Of a stretch of 64,000 bases of DNA, positions 50,217 to 64,000 are shown piece by piece. Location of the stretch: positions 1,724,014 through 1,788,013 of the forward strand of contig NC_015707.1 in assembly GCF_000217815.1 (NCBI RefSeq), given 5' to 3'. Position numbers and translations under genes: made by a program. The notes under the pieces were generated by a model that was not told the DNA's origin, searched no databases, and saw only the letters and a list, made by a program, of their open reading frames with translations. How positions within the stretch are numbered: position 1 is the first letter of the stretch; each line of letters begins with the position of its first letter. Origin of the DNA: Pseudothermotoga thermarum DSM 5069 (lineage in GTDB: Bacteria; Thermotogota; Thermotogae; Thermotogales; DSM-5069).

Positions 50217-51710
50217 TTATTTTGTCGAAAAAAGCTCAAAGTGTTTTTGGTAAGCCTCGCGCATGAAAGAAACCAAATATTTGAAAAACTCGTATCTTTT
50301 TGAGTAATACTCTACCTCTGCTGGTAAAGGCAAATAACTTTTTTCGATTTTCACGAGTTTTTCTGTTGCCTCATCCAAGGTTTTGTAATGACCAAGAGCA
50401 TAATGTCCAAGGATACTGGATCCAAGAAGGGCTGCTTCTTTTGCTTGAGGGATTTTTACTGGTAAGTTGAAAACGTTGGCAAAAATGTTCATCCAAACGT
50501 TCGAGTTGGTTCCACCGCCTCCTGCTCTAAGCTCGCTTACCTCTATTCCATTTTCTTTCAAAGCATCGAAAGCCAACTTCAAAGAAAAAACAACGCCTTC
50601 CATACCTGCTCTGATCATGTGTAATTTGGTGTGATGGCTTTTCAACCCAAAGAATACACCACAGGCAACGTTACCTATTTCTGGATATCTTTCCCCAGTT
50701 ATGAATGGCAAAAAGAACAAATCCTTTGAATCGTCCTGCGCTGCAAGTTCTGACATCTTGTCGTAAGGAAGGTTGAAAATGTTATCTCTGAACCATTTCA
50801 GTATTATCCCAGCGTTGTTTATGGAACCTCCTATGAACCATCTGTTGTTGCAAAGATAACAAGCTTGAAATCTTTTTCTTTTATCTTTATCCACAACGGG
50901 TTTTGGATAAGCGACTCTTATCATCGCTGTTGTACCAAGGTTTATGATCCCATAGTATCCCTGCAAAGCTCCTGTTCCAAGCGCAACAGCGCCACTGTCG
51001 TACACACCGTTTAGAACTTTTACATCTTTTCCTAAACCGATCATTTCTGCCACTTTTGGCCTGATCTGCCCAACGACCTTTTCCGCCGGAACGATTTTTG
51101 CAAGGTTTCTTTCATCGATCCCAAGTACACTCAAAGCATATGGATCCCAGTTCAAGCTATGAATGTTCATCATTTGGGTTGACGATGAAACACTTGGGTC
51201 GGAGTAAATTTCACCGGTGAGAAGAAGGCAAATAAAACTTTTCGAACAGAGAAAATACCTGGCGTTTTTAAAAATCTCGGGTTTTCTTTGTTTCAACCAA
51301 TATATCTTTGCAAACGGATACAAAAACAAAGGCGGACAGCCTGTTCTGTTGTAAAGCTGATCGTAATCAACGATTTGCAAAAGCTCGTGGAAAGTTTCCT
51401 GAGACCTTGTGTCCAACAAGGTTATTATCCCGGTAAGTGGCTTGAAATCTTTGTCCAAAGGAACAAAACCGAACATATAGGAAGATGGGACTATTATTTT
51501 GACTCTTTCTTCATAGCCTTGAACAACTGTTTTACAAATTGAAATTACCGACTCAAAGATAACATCTGGGTTGTGCTCTGCTTTGCCAGTTGAGTCTCTT
51601 TCAACTGAAAGTTCTTTTGTTTCAACTTTTAAAAGGTTTCCATTTACATCCAGTATTCCCGCTTTTATATTTGTAGTTCCTAAATCCAGTGCAAGCACTA
51701 GATCTTCCAT
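50217..51710 (-). CDS. FGGY-family carbohydrate kinase (gluconokinase/xylulokinase-like)
   Basis: The 497-aa protein has two actin-like ATPase halves. The start LALDLGTTNIKAGILDVNGN, the middle GVYDSGAVALGTGALQGYYGIINLGTTAMI and the later ELRAGGGGTNSNVWMNIFANVFNLPV are FGGY signatures. Text such as LLDTRSQETFHEL and WLKQRKPEIFKNARYFLCSKSF fits gluconate or xylulose kinases. The precise substrate is undetermined. Its ATG (51710) overlaps the end of the dehydrogenase gene by 13 bases, so the two act together. Confidence 0.87.
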   Translation of the reverse strand: MEDLVLALDLGTTNIKAGILDVNGNLLKVETKELSVERDSTGKAEHNPDVIFESVISICKTVVQGYEERVKIIVPSSYMFGFVPLDKDFKPLTGIITLLDTRSQETFHELLQIVDYDQLYNRTGCPPLFLYPFAKIYWLKQRKPEIFKNARYFLCSKSFICLLLTGEIYSDPSVSSSTQMMNIHSLNWDPYALSVLGIDERNLAKIVPAEKVVGQIRPKVAEMIGLGKDVKVLNGVYDSGAVALGTGALQGYYGIINLGTTAMIRVAYPKPVVDKDKRKRFQACYLCNNRWFIGGSINNAGIILKWFRDNIFNLPYDKMSELAAQDDSKDLFFLPFITGERYPEIGNVACGVFFGLKSHHTKLHMIRAGMEGVVFSLKLAFDALKENGIEVSELRAGGGGTNSNVWMNIFANVFNLPVKIPQAKEAALLGSSILGHYALGHYKTLDEATEKLVKIEKSYLPLPAEVEYYSKRYEFFKYLVSFMREAYQKHFELFSTK

Positions 51711-52714
51711 GTTCCTTCCCTCAACAACAAATCGATAACTTCTTTGTTGACAACTTCATTTGGAATTTGCTTGTTCATAACTTTCTCAACGTCTTCGACG
51801 ACTTTATCTCCCATTCCTTTCAAACATTCGTAAGTGTAAGCTGCAATGTGAGGTGTTATAACGACATTTTCATACTTCAAAAGTGGATGAGTTTCATCTA
51901 TAGGTTCACCCTCTACAACATCCATTCCTACTCCTGCGACTCTTCCTTTGTTTAGGTATTCCATCAAAGCTTTTTCGTCGATGAGTTCTCCTCTTGCCGT
52001 ATTGATGATTATCACATTTTGTTTCATCATCTCAAATTCTCGGTATGAAAGCATGTGGTAATTTTCCTTCGTCAAAGAAGCGTTCAAAGAAATTATGTCG
52101 GAAGACCTAAGAAGCTCTTCCAAAGAGCAAGGTTCGGCTCCTCTTTTTCTTATTTCCTCTGAAGATAAGTTTGGATCAAATGCAAGTAGTCTAACGTTAA
52201 AACCGTTTTTCAATATTTCACCGACGCGACTTCCTATGTTTCCAAATCCAATTATTCCAACGGTTTTCCCTTTTATTTCCCATCCCATGAACTTTGCTCG
52301 ATCTCTCCATCTGCCTTGTTTCACAGCAGTTGAAGCCTCTATAATTCTTCTTATAACCGTCATTAAAAGTGCAATAGCTGTTTCTGCAACCGCTTCTCTT
52401 TCCACCGTTCCTGTAACTTTTGTAACTATCACTTTCTTTTCCGTTGCACTCTTTATATCTATGTTGTCGTATCCAATCCCATGGCGTGCGATCAATATTG
52501 TTTTGTCTTTATGTTCAAAAAACTCTTTGTTGAAATACGGTTTAACACTGGCTATTATTATCGAAAAACCTTTGAGCTTTTCAGCCAAAGTTTTTCCATC
52601 TATGTTTTCCGGAAATTCAAATCTTTCAACTTCACCGTACTTTTTGAGCTTCTCTATATGTTCGGGAAAATATTTCCCAAAACTGCTTGAATTTACTATG
52701 GCTATCTTAACCAT
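51698..52714 (-). CDS. D-isomer-specific 2-hydroxyacid dehydrogenase
   Basis: The 338-aa NAD-dependent dehydrogenase has the Rossmann motif GIIGFGNIGSRVGEIL. The catalytic Arg is in INTARGELIDEKAL, Glu in GMDVVEGEPID and His in ITPHIAAYT. HGIGYDNIDIKSA is the usual substrate-domain text. It could be a phosphoglycerate, glyoxylate or other 2-hydroxyacid dehydrogenase. (S)-sulfolactate dehydrogenase SlcC is also of this family, which matters because a possible sulfolactate operon lies 4 kb away. Its direct partner is the FGGY kinase, however. Confidence 0.87.
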   Translation of the reverse strand: MVKIAIVNSSSFGKYFPEHIEKLKKYGEVERFEFPENIDGKTLAEKLKGFSIIIASVKPYFNKEFFEHKDKTILIARHGIGYDNIDIKSATEKKVIVTKVTGTVEREAVAETAIALLMTVIRRIIEASTAVKQGRWRDRAKFMGWEIKGKTVGIIGFGNIGSRVGEILKNGFNVRLLAFDPNLSSEEIRKRGAEPCSLEELLRSSDIISLNASLTKENYHMLSYREFEMMKQNVIIINTARGELIDEKALMEYLNKGRVAGVGMDVVEGEPIDETHPLLKYENVVITPHIAAYTYECLKGMGDKVVEDVEKVMNKQIPNEVVNKEVIDLLLREGTWKI

Positions 52715-52837
52715 TCGGAAAAAACCTCCTCTTTTGACTTGGGTGATATTTCAAACGATGAAAAAATTTTTTGTCACATGTTCAATCATATTCCAAATTC
52801 CATTGTTGTGTCAATATCTCACAGAGAACTTCTTTTT

Positions 52838-53176
52838 CTATTTCTCACCATAATTGGGTACCACACAGATGAATGAAGAAGGTCCTTCGTTTACGTTGAC
52901 AAACTGATGTTCTTCATTTGGTTCAACAAAAACAAACCCACCGGCTTCAATCATTTGTTCGCCATCTTTTGATCTAACTTTTATTTTACCTTCGACAACA
53001 AAAATTTCGTGTTCCCACTCATGAGTATGATAAGGCGTACTTGCGCCTGGTTTCAGAGTGAAAAGTCTCATCGTGAAATTCGGTGCTTTATCGGCTGAGC
53101 CAATCAAAACTCTTTTCTCGATGTTGCCACCCATCACAAGCTGTGGTTGAACATCTTTGTAATGTTGAATTTTCAC
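52838..53176 (-). CDS. Single-domain cupin protein
   Basis: The 112-aa protein is one cupin barrel. Motif 1 is PYHTHEWEHEIFVVEGKIKV (two His and one Glu as metal ligands) and motif 2 is EAGGFVFVEPNEEHQFVN, with the last His. Such proteins bind a metal and often act on sugars or serve as sensors. The start is GTG 53176 with GGAGGTG upstream. Its promoter region overlaps that of the divergent TetR gene. The gap of 123 bases to the 2-hydroxyacid dehydrogenase gene leaves operon membership open. Confidence 0.85.
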   Translation of the reverse strand: MKIQHYKDVQPQLVMGGNIEKRVLIGSADKAPNFTMRLFTLKPGASTPYHTHEWEHEIFVVEGKIKVRSKDGEQMIEAGGFVFVEPNEEHQFVNVNEGPSSFICVVPNYGEK

Positions 53177-55647: not shown

Positions 55648-55811
55648 TTCAACGAACTATTAATGAATGGCTTAGCATTTATGTTAGTATAATCGTAAAA
55701 AAACGAATAAGCTGTATGACCCAAATAAAACAAATAGATTCTTTTGCGGACTAGGTAAAAAGATAACCTTAGAATATGGATAGGTTAAAATTTTTTCCAG
55801 GAGGGTACATC

Positions 55812-56480
55812 TTGAAAAGTAAGCAAGTTATCGAAGAACTCAAAAAAATGATATTGACTGAGAATATGAAAATTGGTGATAAGTTGCCAAATGAACGAAC
55901 ATTGGCAGAAAAATTTGGAGTTTCGAGAATAATAATACGTGAGGCGATAAGTTATTTAAAAGCCTGCGGTATAATCAAAAGCAAACATGGTAGCGGCAAT
56001 TACATAGTGAAGGTTCCCAGCTTAAACGAGAACCTTGGAAACGGTTCTTTGGATTATGATATCGACGAACTTGTGGATGCCAGGCAAATGCTTGAAATGA
56101 TGATTGCGCAAAGATTTTTCTCAAATTTTTCCTACGATATGGTGCAGGACATGGTGAGTGCAGTTCATGGCATGGAAACAAATTTCAAAAAAGGCGATTT
56201 AGTTCAGGTTATTGAGCATGACGTGAGGTTCCACAAAATTTATTCGCAAGGTTGCAGCAATTTGATAATATCTTCCTTTTTAAATCAACTCGTCGATTAC
56301 ATGAAAACAAAGGTTTGGCTTCATCTCAAAAAAGATTATCTTTGGGATAAATCCTACCAAGAAAGGTCACTTGCCATTCACAAAAGAATAGTCGAATCTA
56401 TATCCAAACAAAACCTAGAAGCTTTACTAGAAGCTTTAAAGGAACATTATGACAATATCAGGAAATATCTCGAACTTTAG
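55812..56480 (+). CDS. GntR-family regulator, FadR subfamily
   Basis: The protein is about 222 aa. The winged helix at the N-terminus (about 5-70) has DKLPNERTLAEKFGVSRIIIREAISYLKACGII and KHGSGNYIV. The C-terminal FCD helical domain has the metal/ligand-binding pattern (D/H residues in EHDVRFHKIYSQ and HKRIVESI). FCD regulators often sense sugar acids or other carboxylates. I prefer TTG 55812, six bases after AGGAGGG, over the upstream ATG 55776. It is convergent with the GH31 gene (3' overlap of 23 bases) and is the best candidate to control that operon. Confidence 0.87.
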   Translation: MKSKQVIEELKKMILTENMKIGDKLPNERTLAEKFGVSRIIIREAISYLKACGIIKSKHGSGNYIVKVPSLNENLGNGSLDYDIDELVDARQMLEMMIAQRFFSNFSYDMVQDMVSAVHGMETNFKKGDLVQVIEHDVRFHKIYSQGCSNLIISSFLNQLVDYMKTKVWLHLKKDYLWDKSYQERSLAIHKRIVESISKQNLEALLEALKEHYDNIRKYLEL

Positions 56481-58308
56481 CCAAAAGTTCCTCAGCTTTC
56501 TCGTAACTGGCTTTTACAAAAACGGGTGGATAACCAAGCGGTGATTCAATCTCTATCCAACCTTGCTCGAACTTTCTTCTGCTCCACAAATGAATCCATT
56601 CTCCCTTGGGTAGATATACCTTCCAACTTTTTGCACCACGTTTAATAACCGGAGCAACAAGAAGGTATCTACCGAGCAAATATTGATACTTCAGTTTCAA
56701 ACAAACGTTGTCATCAGGGTTATCAAGTGCTAAATGTCTAACGAGAGGTTTATTTGTTTTTACCGCTTCTTCTAATTCGGTTTTGAGATAATCCTTCAAC
56801 GCGAAGTGAATTCTAGCCATTCTTGAGAAGTGGTTTAGAACCCTAGGATCGTCGAATTGAAAATTCTTATAGGGTCTGTTTGTTTGATGAGTTCTCATTA
56901 TAGGTGAAAAGGCACCGATCTCTGCCCAGCGCATGAAAAGCTCTGGGGATCTTTTCAACCAAAAGAGTGAAGTGTAACCACCTGTATCAAAATGAACCAA
57001 TTTGGACCCACAAAGGCTCATGCTGATCATAGCTGGTATGACCGACGGCAATCCATCAGACTTTGACCAATCAACATTTTGATCCCCAGCCCAGTGAATT
57101 GGGGTATAAAGAGTTGATTGCAGATAACCTGCTCTCATGAAGAAAACAGCATCTTTTCCTGATTCTTCGACAGCCTCTTTGTTCAACCTTGCCCAAATGA
57201 CTGGGTACTCGTTGTGATATTCCATCCCAGATCCTTTTTCCAATTTTGCGTCCACAGGCAGGTATTCCCCAAAGTCGGCCATCCAGCCACTCATGCCTAT
57301 TGAAAGCATGTTCTTTTTGATCAAATCCTTATACCACGCGTAAGCTTGAGAGTTGGTCAGATCAATCATCCCGGCTGGGAATGTGGTTACGTATATGTCA
57401 TAAGGATCTCCGTTTTTTGTTTTAACTAAGTAACCACGATTAGCTGCCTCTTTGTAAAGTGGCCCATTTTTTATCAAAAATGGGTTGATGTAACCAAGGA
57501 AATGTATCCCTTTTTCCTTCCACTTTTCTATGTACTCTGGTAAATTGTGATAATCTTTTTCGTCGTAGGACCAATTCCAATAAACTTGCCTGCCGAATTT
57601 TGTTGGATTTTTTCCACACCAATCTTGGCACCAAAGTGCTGTGAGCGGTATTTTGTGTCGTTCACAAACTTGTATAACCCTTTGGACAGCCTCTACACTT
57701 CCTTGGCTTGCTATCCAAACGCCAAAAATCCAGTCGTAGATTGAAGGTTTAGAACCATACATTTTATGGAACATCTCGACCATTTGACTTAACGTTCCTT
57801 CAAGAAAAATTACTTGGGCTTTTCTATCGTAAATCTCTATCGTCCATTCTCCCGGTACTGTGAAATCTACTTTTGTCAAAGCGAATGTGTTAACTATCAA
57901 CCCATAACCGGCGGTTGAGAAAAAGACTGGTTGAGGAAAGTAAGTTGAGTACCAATTTCCCCTAACACCTTTTAACCAAGCAAGAAACGAAATTAGGTTA
58001 TATCCTCTTCCAACTCCTTGTTCTTGAACAAATACGAAAAATTTTCTACCTTCAAGGTTCAGATGTGTGTACTGCTCTCCGCCACCAAAGATTGCTTCTT
58101 TTTTATTGGTTTTAAACTTTAAAATCAACGTATTTGCTTCTCTTGACCCTTCAATCGATATCGTCAATGGACTGTCTTTGATCTTTTTTATGGCATCTTT
58201 TGCAAGCTTGACTTTATTCCAAATTTTTGTTGAAATATTGCAGTGTCCATGAAAATCCTTGATTTTCACGTTAGAACTTGCTTCGAAAGCTTCAACAATT
58301 TGAATCAT
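56458..58308 (-). CDS. GH31 alpha-glycosidase, YihQ/sulfoquinovosidase-like
   Basis: The 616-aa enzyme lacks a signal peptide. Its sequence follows E. coli YihQ sulfoquinovosidase along most of its length. The nucleophile is D345 in GWMADFGEYLP, the acid/base D409 in WAGDQNVDW. Spacing between YihQ positions 301, 405, 472 and 508 and their counterparts here agrees well. Q228, W244 and Y445 match YihQ Q288, W304 and Y508, but YihQ Arg301, a direct sulfonate ligand, is Gln241 (preceded by Arg240). It may hydrolyse sulfoquinovosides or another acidic alpha-glucoside. ATG 58308 overlaps the isomerase-like gene by 17 bases; GGTGGGGAG lies upstream. Confidence 0.82.
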   Translation of the reverse strand: MIQIVEAFEASSNVKIKDFHGHCNISTKIWNKVKLAKDAIKKIKDSPLTISIEGSREANTLILKFKTNKKEAIFGGGEQYTHLNLEGRKFFVFVQEQGVGRGYNLISFLAWLKGVRGNWYSTYFPQPVFFSTAGYGLIVNTFALTKVDFTVPGEWTIEIYDRKAQVIFLEGTLSQMVEMFHKMYGSKPSIYDWIFGVWIASQGSVEAVQRVIQVCERHKIPLTALWCQDWCGKNPTKFGRQVYWNWSYDEKDYHNLPEYIEKWKEKGIHFLGYINPFLIKNGPLYKEAANRGYLVKTKNGDPYDIYVTTFPAGMIDLTNSQAYAWYKDLIKKNMLSIGMSGWMADFGEYLPVDAKLEKGSGMEYHNEYPVIWARLNKEAVEESGKDAVFFMRAGYLQSTLYTPIHWAGDQNVDWSKSDGLPSVIPAMISMSLCGSKLVHFDTGGYTSLFWLKRSPELFMRWAEIGAFSPIMRTHQTNRPYKNFQFDDPRVLNHFSRMARIHFALKDYLKTELEEAVKTNKPLVRHLALDNPDDNVCLKLKYQYLLGRYLLVAPVIKRGAKSWKVYLPKGEWIHLWSRRKFEQGWIEIESPLGYPPVFVKASYEKAEELLAKVRDIS

Positions 58309-59638
58309 ACACTCCCCACCCTTTCAACTGTGCCAGCGTTTTCAAAGTTGAAGAGTAAGAACCGTATGCCATCACGATATGATGTGCAAATCCTTTTTCG
58401 ATCAACGATTCGACGAATTTTACAGGGTTTTTCGCCGCCACTTTCACATAAGTTCCCTTGAGTTCCTGATCTGTTTGAATTGCTTCGGTTTCGTAAACAA
58501 ACAAAATCCAATGGTTTCTAATGTAGTCAAGCCTTGCCAGGGTTACAGTTCCTGGTTTTAACACGAAACCAGCCGTTACACCTTTACCCCCTGCAAAGTA
58601 AGTATCCAAATGTCTTTCTGACCTTTGGTCCCAAAGGTTATGTGCTGCCACACCGCAATGCCAAAGTAACAAGTGGCCTGTTTCAAAGATTTGACTGATG
58701 TCGGCTAAGTAGAATTCCTCACAACCTATTGCTTTGAAAATTACCATCGTTAAAGCGCCAAGAACGTCTCCTTCGCACGCCATTATCCTACCTTCAGCCA
58801 TGTTTGAAGACATCGCAGCGCAAGGAGATATTCCATAATAGTTTGCAAATTCAGGCCAGCACCTTATTGCCAATGCATGAACTTTGGATATTTTGTAAAG
58901 CTTTTCCAGCATTATTTTCAACCTTGCAACTTTTTCAAGTTTTTCTTTGTCAAGTGAAGCAACAAGCTTGTACAAGTTTGTGTATTTCTGAATTTCATTT
59001 TCCAACTCTTCTTTGTCTACGCTAAAGTTGAACAATTCTTCGAGCAAGATAGGTTCAACCAAGACACCAAGTTCTTTGTACAGTTCTGGCTCGTAAACAT
59101 CGACATTTACAAAGCTTCTTGCACGTCCTCCTAACAAGCCTATTTTGCAGTTCTTCAAAGTCTTTATCGCTCTAAGTGCCATGAGCCAGTTTAAAAGTTT
59201 TTTGCTGAAATCTGGATCGTTTGCGTATCCATAGGCAAAAATCAAATCATTTCTACCGGCGCGATAAAGGTTAGAAAAATCAAGATGCGCTCCTACCAAC
59301 GAATTGAGACGAACCCTACCACCGTTGTAAGGCGGTTCAGGTACAGCCCAGCACATGATAGGAACAGTCGGAAAATCTCGTGAGATGTGTAAGGCTAAAT
59401 CACCCAGATGAAAAGTTGCACTCAAAAGTATTATTCCATCCACTGGTTCTTTTTGAATAGTTCTGTAAAACGACTTTAAGTTTTCAACATATTCAATAGT
59501 GCTAGTTGGAAAAATCCAATCTGTGTTTGTATCGATGTTTTGCAAAATATTTATCTGTTCCTTAAAGACTCTGGTTCCTTCGTTCACATCAAACGTACTT
59601 CTTACAAGTGGAATAACGGCTATTCGAAGTTTTTCCAA
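58292..59638 (-). CDS. L-fucose/L-arabinose-isomerase-like protein (candidate sulfoquinovose isomerase)
   Basis: The 448-aa protein is of the FucI/AraA-like fold. An N-terminal sugar-binding-protein-like part (FDVNEGTRVFKEQINILQ, GIILLSATFHLGDLAL) is followed by a catalytic half with ACEGDVLGALTM, YLADISQI and LLLWHCGVAAHNL. The acidic residues and His there are the expected Mn-binding set. Family members turn aldoses into ketoses. In this operon the natural reaction would be sulfoquinovose to sulfofructose, which is inferred from neighbours. The start is TTG 59638 with AGGGAG upstream. It lies 7 bases after the dehydrogenase gene. Confidence 0.75.
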   Translation of the reverse strand: MEKLRIAVIPLVRSTFDVNEGTRVFKEQINILQNIDTNTDWIFPTSTIEYVENLKSFYRTIQKEPVDGIILLSATFHLGDLALHISRDFPTVPIMCWAVPEPPYNGGRVRLNSLVGAHLDFSNLYRAGRNDLIFAYGYANDPDFSKKLLNWLMALRAIKTLKNCKIGLLGGRARSFVNVDVYEPELYKELGVLVEPILLEELFNFSVDKEELENEIQKYTNLYKLVASLDKEKLEKVARLKIMLEKLYKISKVHALAIRCWPEFANYYGISPCAAMSSNMAEGRIMACEGDVLGALTMVIFKAIGCEEFYLADISQIFETGHLLLWHCGVAAHNLWDQRSERHLDTYFAGGKGVTAGFVLKPGTVTLARLDYIRNHWILFVYETEAIQTDQELKGTYVKVAAKNPVKFVESLIEKGFAHHIVMAYGSYSSTLKTLAQLKGWGVYDSNC

Positions 59639-59645
59639 GTTGATC

Positions 59646-61064
59646 TCACTCCCTTGTGTCTATGACAATCGTTTTAATTTCGGTCATTTCTTCTATGGCA
59701 AACCTAACACCTTCTCTGCCTAAACCGCTGTCTTTGTACCCACCGTAAGGCATGAAGTCTGCACGATACCTTGAACTGTCGTTTATTATCACTCCACCAA
59801 ATTGGAGTTCTTCTATTGCTTTCATCATCTCTGAGATTTTCGAGGTGAAAATTCCCGCTTGAAGCCCATAACGCGTAGAATTGGCCATTCTTATGGCTTC
59901 ATCTAAATCTTCATACTCGTTCACTGCAACGGCAGGGCCAAACAATTCTTCTTTCATTATATGGGTGTCTTCTGGAACATTCAGCAACACCGTTGGTTCA
60001 ACGAGCGTGAAGTTTCTTTTACCACCAACTGCTATCGTTGCCCCTTTTTGCTTCGCTTCTTCAAACCAGCTTATAATTCTTATAGCGTTTGCCTCGTCTA
60101 TCACAGGTCCCATATCTGTTTCTGGTAACCTTGGGTCACCGAACCTTATGTTTCTAACCTTTTCTATCAATCCATCCACGAAATTTTTGTAAACCTTTTT
60201 GTGAACGAAAACTCTTTGGACAGATATGCAGACTTGACCTGCTATGGAATATCCGCCACTCACAACGGCTGCTATTGCTCTTTCTATGTTGGCAGTATCG
60301 GTTACTATAACAGGTGAATTTGAACCAAGTTCAAGAGAAAGTTTCTTAAAGCCTGCTTCTTTACATATTCTTTGACCAACTTCAACGCTTCCAGTAAAGC
60401 TTACAATCCTTATTCTGGGATCTTTGACAAGTTGCATACCTACCGTTGAACCAGGACCTGTGATAACGCTCACCGCTTGCGGTGGAAGCCCAGCTTTAAG
60501 GAGTATTTCTCCAAGTATCAAAGCATTAAGAGGAGTCTGAGAAGCAGGCTTTATTATGATAGAGTTACCAGCGGCAATAGCAGGAGCAACTTTGTGAGCA
60601 CAAAGTGCTAGCGGTACATTGAATGGTACTATGGCAAGCACTATACCGGCTGGTTCCCTTAGGAAATAACCTCTTTTGAACTCGGAACCTTTGACCGAAT
60701 CAAACGGCAAAGTTTCACCGTGTATCCTTTTAGCTTCTTCTGCCGCTAGTTTGAAAATATCTGCGGTGCGTAAAACTTCCACTTCGGCTTCTCTTACAGT
60801 TTTTCCAACTTCGCTTACCAAAGTTTCCGTTAAACGTTTTTTCTCCCTTAAGATCAGTTTAGCTGTTTCTTCAAGAATTTCTGCTCTTTTCCATGCTGGA
60901 AGTTTTTTCATCGTTTTAAACCCTTCTAATGCAGATTGAACAGCCATTTCCACATCTTCTGCAGTAGCCACAGGTACTTCGTCGACAACTTCTCCTGTGT
61001 ATGGATAATGAACCTTTAATTTTTCTGGTCTGTCGACGAATTTGCCTCCTATTATCATCTTCAT
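59646..61064 (-). CDS. NAD(P)-dependent aldehyde dehydrogenase (candidate sulfolactaldehyde dehydrogenase)
   Basis: The 472-aa enzyme has the cofactor and active-site pattern of the ALDH superfamily: N149 in VPFNVPL, E245 in LELGSNSPV, and catalytic C279 in GQVCISVQRV. GPGSTVG and FTGSVEVGQ bind NAD(P). The sequence type is near lactaldehyde and non-phosphorylating glyceraldehyde-phosphate dehydrogenases, a group that also holds sulfolactaldehyde dehydrogenases. I use ATG 61064 with GGAGG seven bases upstream; the longer open frame starts within SuyB-like coding sequence. It would supply sulfolactate to the lyase encoded just upstream. Confidence 0.86.
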   Translation of the reverse strand: MKMIIGGKFVDRPEKLKVHYPYTGEVVDEVPVATAEDVEMAVQSALEGFKTMKKLPAWKRAEILEETAKLILREKKRLTETLVSEVGKTVREAEVEVLRTADIFKLAAEEAKRIHGETLPFDSVKGSEFKRGYFLREPAGIVLAIVPFNVPLALCAHKVAPAIAAGNSIIIKPASQTPLNALILGEILLKAGLPPQAVSVITGPGSTVGMQLVKDPRIRIVSFTGSVEVGQRICKEAGFKKLSLELGSNSPVIVTDTANIERAIAAVVSGGYSIAGQVCISVQRVFVHKKVYKNFVDGLIEKVRNIRFGDPRLPETDMGPVIDEANAIRIISWFEEAKQKGATIAVGGKRNFTLVEPTVLLNVPEDTHIMKEELFGPAVAVNEYEDLDEAIRMANSTRYGLQAGIFTSKISEMMKAIEELQFGGVIINDSSRYRADFMPYGGYKDSGLGREGVRFAIEEMTEIKTIVIDTRE

Positions 61065-61080
61065 ATTCCAACCTCCAAAT

Positions 61081-62235
61081 TCATGCACTTGGATAGAGCT
61101 TTGTCAAGACAAACTCTTTGTGATTGAGTATCTCTGCTTTGACCATTCTACCGTTGGCAGTTTCTACAACTCGTTTCCAGAGAATTTGAGTTGCTTCCTC
61201 TAGCGTAATCTGTCCTTTGAGTAAAGCAGATACGTCTACATCTATATGCTCTGACATGCATGCAGCTGTTTTTTCGTTCGCAGTGATCTTTACCACAGGA
61301 ACGATTGGGTTTCCAATTGGGTTTCCTTGGCCTGTTGGGAAAAGGTGTATTACGGCTCCGGCGGCAGCAAAAAGCGTTACCGCTTCAGCAGCTGCAGACG
61401 ATGTGTTCATGAAATAAAGTCCTTTTCCAGTTGGTTTTTCAGCGTAGTCAAGAGCACCATCAATGAGTGCATTTCCAATTTTTTGAATGTTGCCAAGAGC
61501 TTTTTCTTCTATGGTACTCAAACCACCTGCTATGTTGCCTTGCGTAGGCTGGGAACCAAGAAGATCTACGCCTTGAGATTTTATCAACTGTTGATATTCG
61601 TTGAAAAACATCATAAACTTTTCCCTGTCCTCGGGTCTTTTGAACCTTGAAGCGATTATGTGTTCTGCCCCAGTTAACTCAGAGGTTTCTCCAAACAAAA
61701 CAGTTCCACCAATTTCGAGGAATTTTTCTGTGAACCTACCTACAACTTTGTTTGCTCCCAAACCAGAGGTTGTATCTGATTCACCACATTTCAAGCTGAT
61801 TATCAATTCGCTTATATCAACAGGTTCTCTTCTTAAATTGGTTGCATCTTCGACCATTTTCACAGCAGCTCTTGTGACCTTTTCAATAGTTCTTATCTGA
61901 CCACTTCCTTCGATCCAAAATGCTTCCACTGGTTTTCCTGTTTTTGCTATTCCATCGGCAACGATTTGCGTCCATTTTGGTTCAACTCCAACCACTATTG
62001 CTGCAGCAACGTTCGGATTACTCCCAGTACCTATGAGTGTCCTAAACAAAAGCTCTAAGTCCTTTCCAAATTGCAATCTTCCGTAAGGATGTGGTATGGC
62101 AAGTGTCCCTGCAACGGCTTTTTCAGCGGCCTCAACGACAGCGTTAGATATGTCATCAACTGTTAGTAAAATCACGTAATTTCTAACACCAACACTACCA
62201 TCGGGTCTTCTGTATGCAAGAATTTGTCTTTCCAT
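61081..62235 (-). CDS. suyB: UxaA-family large subunit, probable (R)-sulfolactate sulfo-lyase beta subunit
   Basis: The 384-aa protein is the C-terminal catalytic part of the altronate dehydratase (UxaA) family. It starts with YRRPDGSVGVRNYVILL and has LKCGESDTTSGLGANKVVG, a cysteine-rich metal/substrate region. GKGLYFMNTSSAAAEAVTLFAAAGA and FPTGQGNPIGNPIVPVVKITAN follow. As a separate polypeptide paired with a small SAF subunit it has the architecture of SuyAB, which splits sulfolactate into pyruvate and sulfite. The same split form exists for altronate or other sugar-acid dehydratases, so context decides. ATG 62235 has GGGGGTG upstream. Confidence 0.72.
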   Translation of the reverse strand: MERQILAYRRPDGSVGVRNYVILLTVDDISNAVVEAAEKAVAGTLAIPHPYGRLQFGKDLELLFRTLIGTGSNPNVAAAIVVGVEPKWTQIVADGIAKTGKPVEAFWIEGSGQIRTIEKVTRAAVKMVEDATNLRREPVDISELIISLKCGESDTTSGLGANKVVGRFTEKFLEIGGTVLFGETSELTGAEHIIASRFKRPEDREKFMMFFNEYQQLIKSQGVDLLGSQPTQGNIAGGLSTIEEKALGNIQKIGNALIDGALDYAEKPTGKGLYFMNTSSAAAEAVTLFAAAGAVIHLFPTGQGNPIGNPIVPVVKITANEKTAACMSEHIDVDVSALLKGQITLEEATQILWKRVVETANGRMVKAEILNHKEFVLTKLYPSA

Positions 62236-62240
62236 GCTTT

Positions 62241-62522
62241 TCACCCCCATCTGAGAGATCTGATGTTGTGAACATGAACGTGTGATCCTTTCAATATTCT
62301 TTGAGTTGCTTTTCCTATAATTTCACCGTACTCTTTTACTTTTTCACCTTCCTCTATATCCCTTAAGGCGATTTTGTGACCATAGGGAATGTCTTCAACT
62401 ACTTCTATTTCGTAAGTTTGTTCTCCGTCAAAAGTTCTTCCTCTAGCGATTTCACCCTTTTTCAAATCTTTAACAGCAACTCCAACGTCATCCCCATGTT
62501 TGTGAACCAAGAAATCGATCAT
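62241..62522 (-). CDS. suyA: SAF-domain small subunit, probable sulfolactate sulfo-lyase alpha subunit
   Basis: The 93-aa protein is a single SAF domain: HKHGDDVGVAVKDLKKGE, EDIPYGHKIALRDIEEGEKVKEYGEIIGKAT, and the ending GSHVHVHNIRS. This domain forms the N-terminal part of fused UxaA and the separate alpha subunit in SuyAB. Its stop lies 5 bases before the large-subunit start. The ATG (62522) is preceded by AGGGAAGGG. The assignment to sulfolactate shares the uncertainty noted for the large subunit. Confidence 0.75.
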   Translation of the reverse strand: MIDFLVHKHGDDVGVAVKDLKKGEIARGRTFDGEQTYEIEVVEDIPYGHKIALRDIEEGEKVKEYGEIIGKATQRILKGSHVHVHNIRSLRWG

Positions 62523-62537
62523 AACCCTTCCCTCCCA

Positions 62538-63194
62538 TTATTGAATCTTTTGCCAAGCGTCGCAGAATATCTCAAGGCCAAGTTTTACATAGGGATTTTC
62601 AAAACCTCTTTTGTAAACCTCAAATCCAGCGGTTATGATATCCGCACCGGCAAGTGCTGCTTCTTCAAAATGTTTTAAATTTCTAACCGCAGCTATCAAA
62701 ATCTTGGATTTGAAACCGTAGTTCTTAACAGCTTTTACAATGGTTGCTATGAAGTCCTTATCGAAATCTCCTCTTTCTTCTTTCCAACCGACGAATGGGC
62801 TTATGTAGTAAGCCCCAAGTTTAGCGGCTTGGAGTGCTTGCAAAACGTTGAAAATCAACGTCATGTTAACTTTCACGTTTTCTTTCGCAAGCTTTTCAAG
62901 GGCGATGAAGCCAGGTTCTGTTGCTGGGATTTTTATCACGAAGTTCTCCGATAAAGTTGCCAAATTTCTTGCTTGTTCTATCATTTTTTCTGGGTCTTGT
63001 AGATGTGGATCGATTTCCAAACTCACCGTTATGTGTGTTCCTTCAACCATAGGTTTAATTTTTTTGATGAATTCGTCCATTTTCATACCTGCAGTCATAA
63101 GGTGTTTGGGGTTTGTTGTGATTCCATCGATCTTCCAATTTTTGATTGCATATTCAATCTCATCAAGTTTTGCACTGTCCAAGAAGAATAGCAT
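62538..63194 (-). CDS. Small transaldolase (TalC/FSA family), candidate sulfofructose transaldolase
   Basis: The 218-aa class I aldolase/transaldolase has the Schiff-base Lys88 in FVIKIPAT, with FFLDSAKLDEI and DGITTNPK at the N-terminus. The phosphate-binding arginine of the usual SPFVGR motif is Trp137 (SPFVGWKEE), and the Ser of LAAS is Ala169 (IAAVR). A changed pocket for the C6 group fits a substrate with sulfonate in place of phosphate, but this is an inference. The product step would be sulfofructose plus glyceraldehyde-3-phosphate to sulfolactaldehyde plus fructose-6-phosphate. ATG 63194 has AAGGAGGG upstream. Confidence 0.8.
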   Translation of the reverse strand: MLFFLDSAKLDEIEYAIKNWKIDGITTNPKHLMTAGMKMDEFIKKIKPMVEGTHITVSLEIDPHLQDPEKMIEQARNLATLSENFVIKIPATEPGFIALEKLAKENVKVNMTLIFNVLQALQAAKLGAYYISPFVGWKEERGDFDKDFIATIVKAVKNYGFKSKILIAAVRNLKHFEEAALAGADIITAGFEVYKRGFENPYVKLGLEIFCDAWQKIQ

Positions 63195-63206
63195 GTTTTT
63201 CCCTCC

Positions 63207-64000
63207 TTATCCTTTTATTCCACCAGCTGACAATCCCTTTATTATGTACTTTTGCAAACTGAGCGTTACGACAAAAACCGGCAAAAGCATTATTGTTCCG
63301 GCGGCTGAAAGCTGCCCCCAAAGTGGAGCGTACTGACCCAAGAATGCGTTGACAACCACCGGTGCGGTTTTAGCCTTTGAACCAGTTAAGACCAAGGCGT
63401 ATATGAACTCGTTCCAGCTCATCAAGAAAGCAAAAACAGTTGCGACAACGATACCAGCCGATGCAAGCGGGAAGAATATTCGCAAGAATATTTGAAAACC
63501 TTTGCAACCATCAACTTTTGCGGCTTCTTCGTATTCCTTTGGAATGCTTGAAAAGAAAGGAAGCAGCAAGGCTATCACATATGGTAAGTTAAAACTTATA
63601 TGCGCAAGAGAAAGACCAATCAAAGTGTCATTCAAACCAAGTGAGCGGAAAATCATGTAAAAGGGAACAGAAAGGGATATTTGTGGAATCATCCTGAGCA
63701 TCAGCAAACCAAAAACAATGAGTTCGTTGATTTTGAATCTAAATCTGGTTAAACCATATGCAGCCATAGCCCCAAGAGTGACAGAGACAATCGACGACAA
63801 GCTTGCAACGCAAAGGAATTTTTCATCGATCGCTTGAAATCCAAACTTTTGAATATTTGTTCGTAACTTCTCAAAGTTGGCTTGAAATAAAATGGATTAC
63901 GGCTCCATATGTCTATATCACGTTTGAATCCGTTGAAAACAATAACCGTTATTGGAAAAAGTTGAACGAGAACTATAAAGAATGCGACTGAAAAGGTCAC
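63207..64000 (-). pseudogene. CUT1 sugar ABC permease (MalG type), frameshifted and cut by the window edge
   Basis: Two overlapping frames encode consecutive parts of one MalG-type permease. The first part (64000 to about 63815) holds the first helix and a periplasmic segment ending FKRSMKNSF. The second (about 63812 to 63207) continues VASLSSIVSVTLGAMAAYGLTRFRF and includes the cytoplasmic EAA loop (PKEYEEAAKVDGCKGFQIFLRIFFPLA). A one-base gain or two-base loss near 63808-63818 would restore one frame. It may be a true mutation or a sequence error. The start lies at or beyond the right edge. It would import the sugar processed by the downstream genes. Confidence 0.78.

Follow-up and report, generated by a model that had tools for sequence, protein, structure and literature searches.

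A candidate operon for complete sulfoquinovose use in Pseudothermotoga thermarum and a proposed sulfolactate racemase gene in the operons of its relatives

Described routes of sulfoquinovose and sulfolactate breakdown

Most sulfoglycolytic bacteria need a second partner for the full use of sulfoquinovose (SQ), a sulfo-sugar of plants and algae, and the sulfolactate derived from SQ is the (S)-enantiomer. The sulfo-TAL pathway of Bacillus megaterium and B. aryabhattai resembles the operon described here in its SftI-type isomerase, 6-deoxy-6-sulfofructose (SF) transaldolase, and SlaB-type dehydrogenase, but these bacilli excrete sulfolactate, whereas the operon instead includes SuyAB and has a divergent isomerase. 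SuyAB is also found in the C3-sulfonate degraders Cupriavidus pinatubonensis, Paracoccus, Chromohalobacter, and Desulfovibrio DF1, and the Cupriavidus and Paracoccus proteins share a clade with that of the operon in our tree; unlike the operon, these degraders start from DHPS, cysteate, or sulfolactate. The substrate of SuyAB in the aerobic C3-sulfonate degraders is (R)-sulfolactate, and racemisation is performed by two dehydrogenases, either SlcC/ComC or HpsO/HpsP; the use of (R)-sulfolactate by characterised SuyAB and racemisation by the SlcC/ComC route are both described in PMC9594981 and in PMC12421959. The tandem sulfofucolytic-SuyAB pathway of Paracoccus wurundjeri (PMC12421959) likewise carries a sulfo-sugar to sulfite in one bacterium, but it is of the Entner-Doudoroff type, acts upon sulfofucose, and relies upon SlcC/ComC racemisation.

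The sulfo-TAL clusters of Thermotogae and Chloroflexi are like the operon in combining an SF transaldolase, SuyAB, and complete use of SQ carbon. According to the review by Wei et al. 2022 (PMC9594981, citing Liu et al. 2020), SuyAB is part of these clusters, and the full carbon of SQ could be used. No difference between them and the operon is known; the review's passages on them do not mention the racemase gene of the relatives described below. Because the review already states this, the joined pathway is not new and adds one more case to a prediction already in print, which removes the novelty implied by the original prediction for this locus. The new part of our finding is a LarA-family gene present in the SQ operons of seven relatives, and this racemase lead matters more than the already predicted pathway. 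The best-matching LarA model for that gene is LarAH5, whose member Mar1 of Desulfitobacterium hafniense was assayed with malate and other non-sulfonated hydroxy acids only (PMC7583248).

Gene content and layout of the operon

The window, that is, the whole stretch of 64,000 nucleotides that was analysed (G000:C1:1724014-1788013), belongs to a genome of 2,039,943 bases assembled as a single contig. An ORF check together with Pfam and NCBIfam profiles recovered all seven of the contiguous minus-strand genes originally predicted at 56458-64000, each in its named family and with one amendment, a frameshifted permease. Their tight spacing was also borne out, as neighbouring genes either overlap (GH31/isomerase, aldehyde dehydrogenase/SuyB, and SuyB/SuyA) or are separated by gaps of ≤15 bp. 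The features are as follows:

55776..56480, plus strand: GntR/FCD regulator, a candidate regulator convergent on the operon 3' end (PF00392 and PF07729)
56458..58308, minus strand: putative GH31 sulfoquinovosidase of YihQ type, with a QQQWY variant of the QQRWY sulfonate site (PRK10426; 5aed)
58292..59638, minus strand: putative sulfoquinovose isomerase, SftI/SqvD-like, FucI/AraA family (NF048012 best model, below cutoff)
59646..61088, minus strand: aldehyde dehydrogenase, candidate sulfolactaldehyde dehydrogenase SlaB (PF00171, 537 bits)
61081..62250, minus strand: predicted SuyB, large subunit of (R)-sulfolactate sulfo-lyase (58.8% identity to a protein of the C. pinatubonensis hpsN-hpsO-...-suyA-suyB cluster; 100/100 clade)
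62241..62522, minus strand: predicted SuyA, small subunit of sulfolactate sulfo-lyase, SAF domain (PF08666, E 2e-09)
62538..63194, minus strand: predicted 6-deoxy-6-sulfofructose transaldolase SqvA/SftT (48.6% identity to BmSF-TAL; key residues)
63207..64000, minus strand: CUT1 ABC permease, MalG-like, 3' part, the gene continuing to L002:12041 (PF00528)

The catabolic genes are all found where a complete operon had been predicted, but the operon is not complete within the window, since on its 5' side it extends ~2.2 kb beyond the window edge, where genes for another CUT1 permease and for a solute-binding protein follow (L002:12038-14177). A divergent GPH-family symporter gene starts at L002:14429, ~250 bp from the operon, and homologs of the GntR/FCD regulator are located 3' of the GH31 gene at L034, L035, L036, L040, and L048. 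A promoter scan returned one good match 5' of the solute-binding protein gene, with a number of matches not above chance, and no Rfam elements were matched. Beside the SQ region, FGGY kinase, D-2-hydroxyacid dehydrogenase, and cupin genes occur in a row at 50217-53176; no link of this row to the SQ operon was seen in the SQ loci of relatives.

From gene content, order, and conservation, protein family, and active-site residues, all of which are observed, we infer all substrates and flux. It is highly likely that the operon serves the import and complete use of SQ and its alpha-glycosides through an extended sulfo-TAL route. The CUT1 ABC importer, and perhaps also the divergent GPH symporter, would take up SQ itself or sulfoquinovosyl glycerol; SQ would be released by the GH31 enzyme and converted by the isomerase to 6-deoxy-6-sulfofructose. 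The transaldolase would then transfer the dihydroxyacetone half to glyceraldehyde-3-phosphate, yielding (S)-sulfolactaldehyde along with fructose-6-phosphate. Oxidation of this aldehyde by the aldehyde dehydrogenase would give (S)-sulfolactate, and SuyAB would cleave sulfolactate to pyruvate and sulfite. For relatives within the same order and class, we propose a further step, in which a LarA-family racemase would turn (S)-sulfolactate into the (R)-form used by SuyAB. An anaerobic thermophile with a working pathway of this kind would assimilate all of the SQ carbon itself and release sulfite with no need for a second partner.

Compared with 11 relatives, whose frames of 272-276 codons are intact, the permease gene lacks one base near 63805-63811 and falls into two ORFs (63207-63800 and from 63749 onward); the region concerned is 63749-63811 of the window and L002:11763-12041. 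The deletion may be either a mutation or a sequencing error. This deletion and the lack of a LarA gene in the operon could be signs of a decaying cluster that no longer supports growth on SQ, which we consider improbable, as no catabolic gene is disrupted and all are well conserved, import could run through the divergent GPH symporter, and relatives of the same family also have no racemase gene, yet their permeases are intact.

Evidence for the individual enzymes and their conservation

To place the operon in its phylum, 103 genomes were searched with the isomerase and SuyB, and the neighbourhoods of the matches were then read. The order solute-binding protein, permease, permease, transaldolase, SuyA, SuyB, (LarA), and aldehyde dehydrogenase, plus isomerase and GH31, is present, either whole or in part on fragmentary contigs, in no fewer than 13 further Thermotogota genomes, so chance can be excluded as its source and the core order proposed at the outset as worth seeking in other Thermotogae is indeed found there. 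Most genes of the recurring cluster are 40-87% identical to those of the window, and an SQ-type SuyB (71-87% identical) is encoded in 13 genomes besides the window's own. Three types of cluster exist in the phylum: the first combines transaldolase, SuyAB, and aldehyde dehydrogenase with a window-type isomerase, the second has the same genes with a divergent isomerase that is 28-30% identical to the window's (G057, G059, G060, and G065), and in the third, SqwF, SqwG, SqwH, SqwI, and an EamA-family transporter (sulfo-TK) replace the transaldolase and SuyAB. Sulfo-TK clusters are located at L042 (in part), L043, L045, L046, and L047, and their isomerase and GH31 genes are held in common with the SQ operon. 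As sulfo-TK is an independent SF-processing pathway, this sharing supports the SQ reading.

SuyB falls within a 100/100 clade together with proteins from Cupriavidus, Paracoccus, Rhodococcus, and Archaeoglobus, apart from UxaA, GarD, and the Thermotogota paralogs, and a gap in identity separates the SuyB-type group (55-59%) from other UxaA relatives (≤41%). The suyA gene is always immediately 5' of suyB in the relatives. Given this clade and its separation from UxaA and GarD, the concern that the SuyAB-like proteins might belong among the altronate dehydratases did not hold up. The best solved match of the transaldolase is BmSF-TAL (E ~1e-64, vs 6e-44 for 1vpx), and all six residues tested are kept (BmSF-TAL numbering), comprising the catalytic D6, E61, and K89, the sugar-orienting N111 and S133, and the sulfonate-orienting W138 (roles from PMC11659671). 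A transaldolase from an unrelated locus, outside the SQ cluster, has Arg at position 138.

The GH31 protein scores 750 bits against the YihQ model PRK10426 (cutoff 553), is 40% identical to E. coli YihQ, and has YihQ as its best solved match (5aed, E 6e-149). With numbering checked against E. coli YihQ, it keeps the catalytic D405 and D472 and also Q262, Q288, W304, and Y508, but has Gln in place of the sulfonate-binding Arg301. The predicted YihQ likeness is therefore upheld by the model but not at this position. Gln301 is present in the window protein and in all other aligned homologs from sulfo-TAL clusters, whereas the aligned solved SQases have Arg; among the sulfo-TK clusters, two have Gln301 and three Arg301. 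Because both of the clusters with Gln have a full sulfo-TK gene set, we read Gln301 as a variant sulfonate site. By model and context, the window protein is of the YihQ type and may be a sulfoquinovosidase with such a site. For the isomerase, predicted to be a FucI-like sulfoquinovose isomerase, SftI is indeed the best NCBIfam model (NF048012), but the score of 241.6 bits is far under the cutoff of 700; homologs occur in both sulfo-TAL and sulfo-TK clusters, and from this context it likely acts as SftI does. The aldehyde dehydrogenase resembles B. megaterium SlaB in part, as the Phe-Asn-Val and His match while Ser stands in place of Asn280 (residues per PMC10599462); its best model is the methanogen lactaldehyde dehydrogenase, with a score below cutoff.

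The Arg-to-Gln change in GH31, the low isomerase score, and the fact that UxaA-family proteins are mostly sugar-acid dehydratases would also suit an operon for breaking down an acidic sugar or glycoside without a sulfonate group, by means of an alpha-glucosidase, an aldose isomerase, a fructose-6-phosphate transaldolase, and a UxaA-family sugar-acid dehydratase. We find this very unlikely, as SuyB sits in the SuyB clade, the transaldolase keeps W138, the Gln301-type GH31 also occurs in full sulfo-TK clusters, and neither a kinase nor a KDG aldolase gene is present among the operon genes of the window and the 5' extension. Overall, these gene-by-gene tests favour the predicted joining of sulfo-TAL sulfoglycolysis to sulfolactate cleavage. 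Weighing against the SQ route are Gln301, the isomerase score, the frameshifted permease, and the lack of an operon racemase gene and of Ldh_2, NIR_SIR, and TauE matches in the genome.

Racemisation and the LarA-family gene of the relatives

The claim that the gene set covers each step mostly stands with regard to the enzymes, but it overlooked stereochemistry, namely the step that links (S)-sulfolactate to its (R)-enantiomer. The operon of the window has no LarA gene. SlcC/ComC racemisation was considered for this genome and rejected, as no match to the ComC-type Ldh_2 was found in it. A 2-hydroxyacid dehydrogenase at 51698-52714 was considered as SlcC, but it shares only 30% identity with a candidate SlcC of Rhodococcus and the SQ loci of relatives contain no homolog of it, and for these reasons it was not counted. 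The single LarA of the genome is a poor candidate for a dedicated sulfolactate racemase, since it is of the LarAH6 malate-racemase type (590 bits) and adjoins malic enzyme. With regard to the fate of sulfite, neither a siroheme-type sulfite reductase (NIR_SIR) nor a TauE exporter was matched in the window's genome.

In seven genomes from two families (G091, G095, G096, G035, G036, G051, and G052), a LarA-family gene lies beside suyB, and a fragment is present in G101. In the six of the seven carriers whose contig continues, its place is between suyB and the gene for the aldehyde dehydrogenase. The positions of the LarA-family gene beside suyB are as follows:

L035:6412-7656
L036:11890-13137
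L037:6062-7321
L038:6735-7973
L039:6526-7764
L041:6856-8127
L093:2-1117

The encoded proteins have the Lar_N and LarA_C domains of the nickel-pincer racemase family, which identify them as LarA and led us to reject a dehydrogenase or a sulfite exporter as the identity of the extra gene. Their nearest solved relative is the malate racemase Mar2. As to the catalytic His pair and the cofactor Lys, H99, H165, K175, and H191 are invariant; so is Lys347, the presumed ligand of the distal carboxylate in Mar2. Sulfolactate is malate with a sulfonate replacing this distal carboxylate. LarAH5 is always the best curated model (NF052595, cutoff 462), with scores of 483 bits for L035, 460 for L036, and 386-423 for four others. 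In a tree whose sampling was confined to pattern-matched loci, the seven operon proteins form one clade (100/100), and its sister is the SuyAB-linked LarA of an Archaeoglobus (97/95). Among the matches listed, no close homolog was found on plasmids.

We propose that the operon LarA is a sulfolactate racemase that would supply (R)-sulfolactate to SuyAB. More broadly, we lean somewhat towards the view that the SuyAB-associated LarA clade seen in Thermotogota and in an Archaeoglobus consists of sulfolactate racemases, a one-enzyme substitute for SlcC/ComC, and that this is perhaps the native function of LarAH5/Mar1; our literature search found no paper linking sulfolactate to LarA. If so, a single nickel enzyme would bridge the (S)-product and the (R)-using SuyAB, LarAH5 would gain a plausible natural substrate, and the LarA superfamily would gain a sulfonate. 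A competing explanation, which we regard as a serious if doubtful one, is that the operon LarA is an ordinary malate racemase or acts upon another hydroxy acid, with SuyAB either taking (S)-sulfolactate or needing no racemisation. NCBIfam does label the family malate racemase, and, counting the window's genome itself, seven members of its family carry closely similar SuyAB but no operon LarA. Moreover, among the seven carriers, a genome search found the cofactor-synthesis genes larC and larE in just three (G091, G095, and G096) and neither gene in G035, G036, G051, and G052; they were also not found in the LarA-bearing G000, G057-G061, and G065. On the other hand, seven genomes from two families have the gene adjacent to suyB and, wherever the contig continues, flanked on its other side by the gene for the sulfolactaldehyde dehydrogenase, the SuyAB-linked LarA of an Archaeoglobus is its sister, and the only tested LarAH5 enzyme, Mar1, has a KM of 55 mM for malate, which its authors doubt to be the native substrate (PMC7583248). 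D. hafniense encodes SuyB too (PMC6278857).

Two further arrangements of LarA genes were observed. In Archaeoglobus sp. UBA230, suyA, suyB, fumarase-like, fumarate-reductase-like, and LarAH5-type genes form one same-strand run (L052:2687-11245). Elsewhere, other LarA genes adjoin UxaA-type SuyAB paralogs (~39% identical) at L095:7970-10673, L096:7097-9785, and L100:1332-4158, and LarA with a UxaA-type lyase is a recurring racemase/lyase pairing at these three loci.
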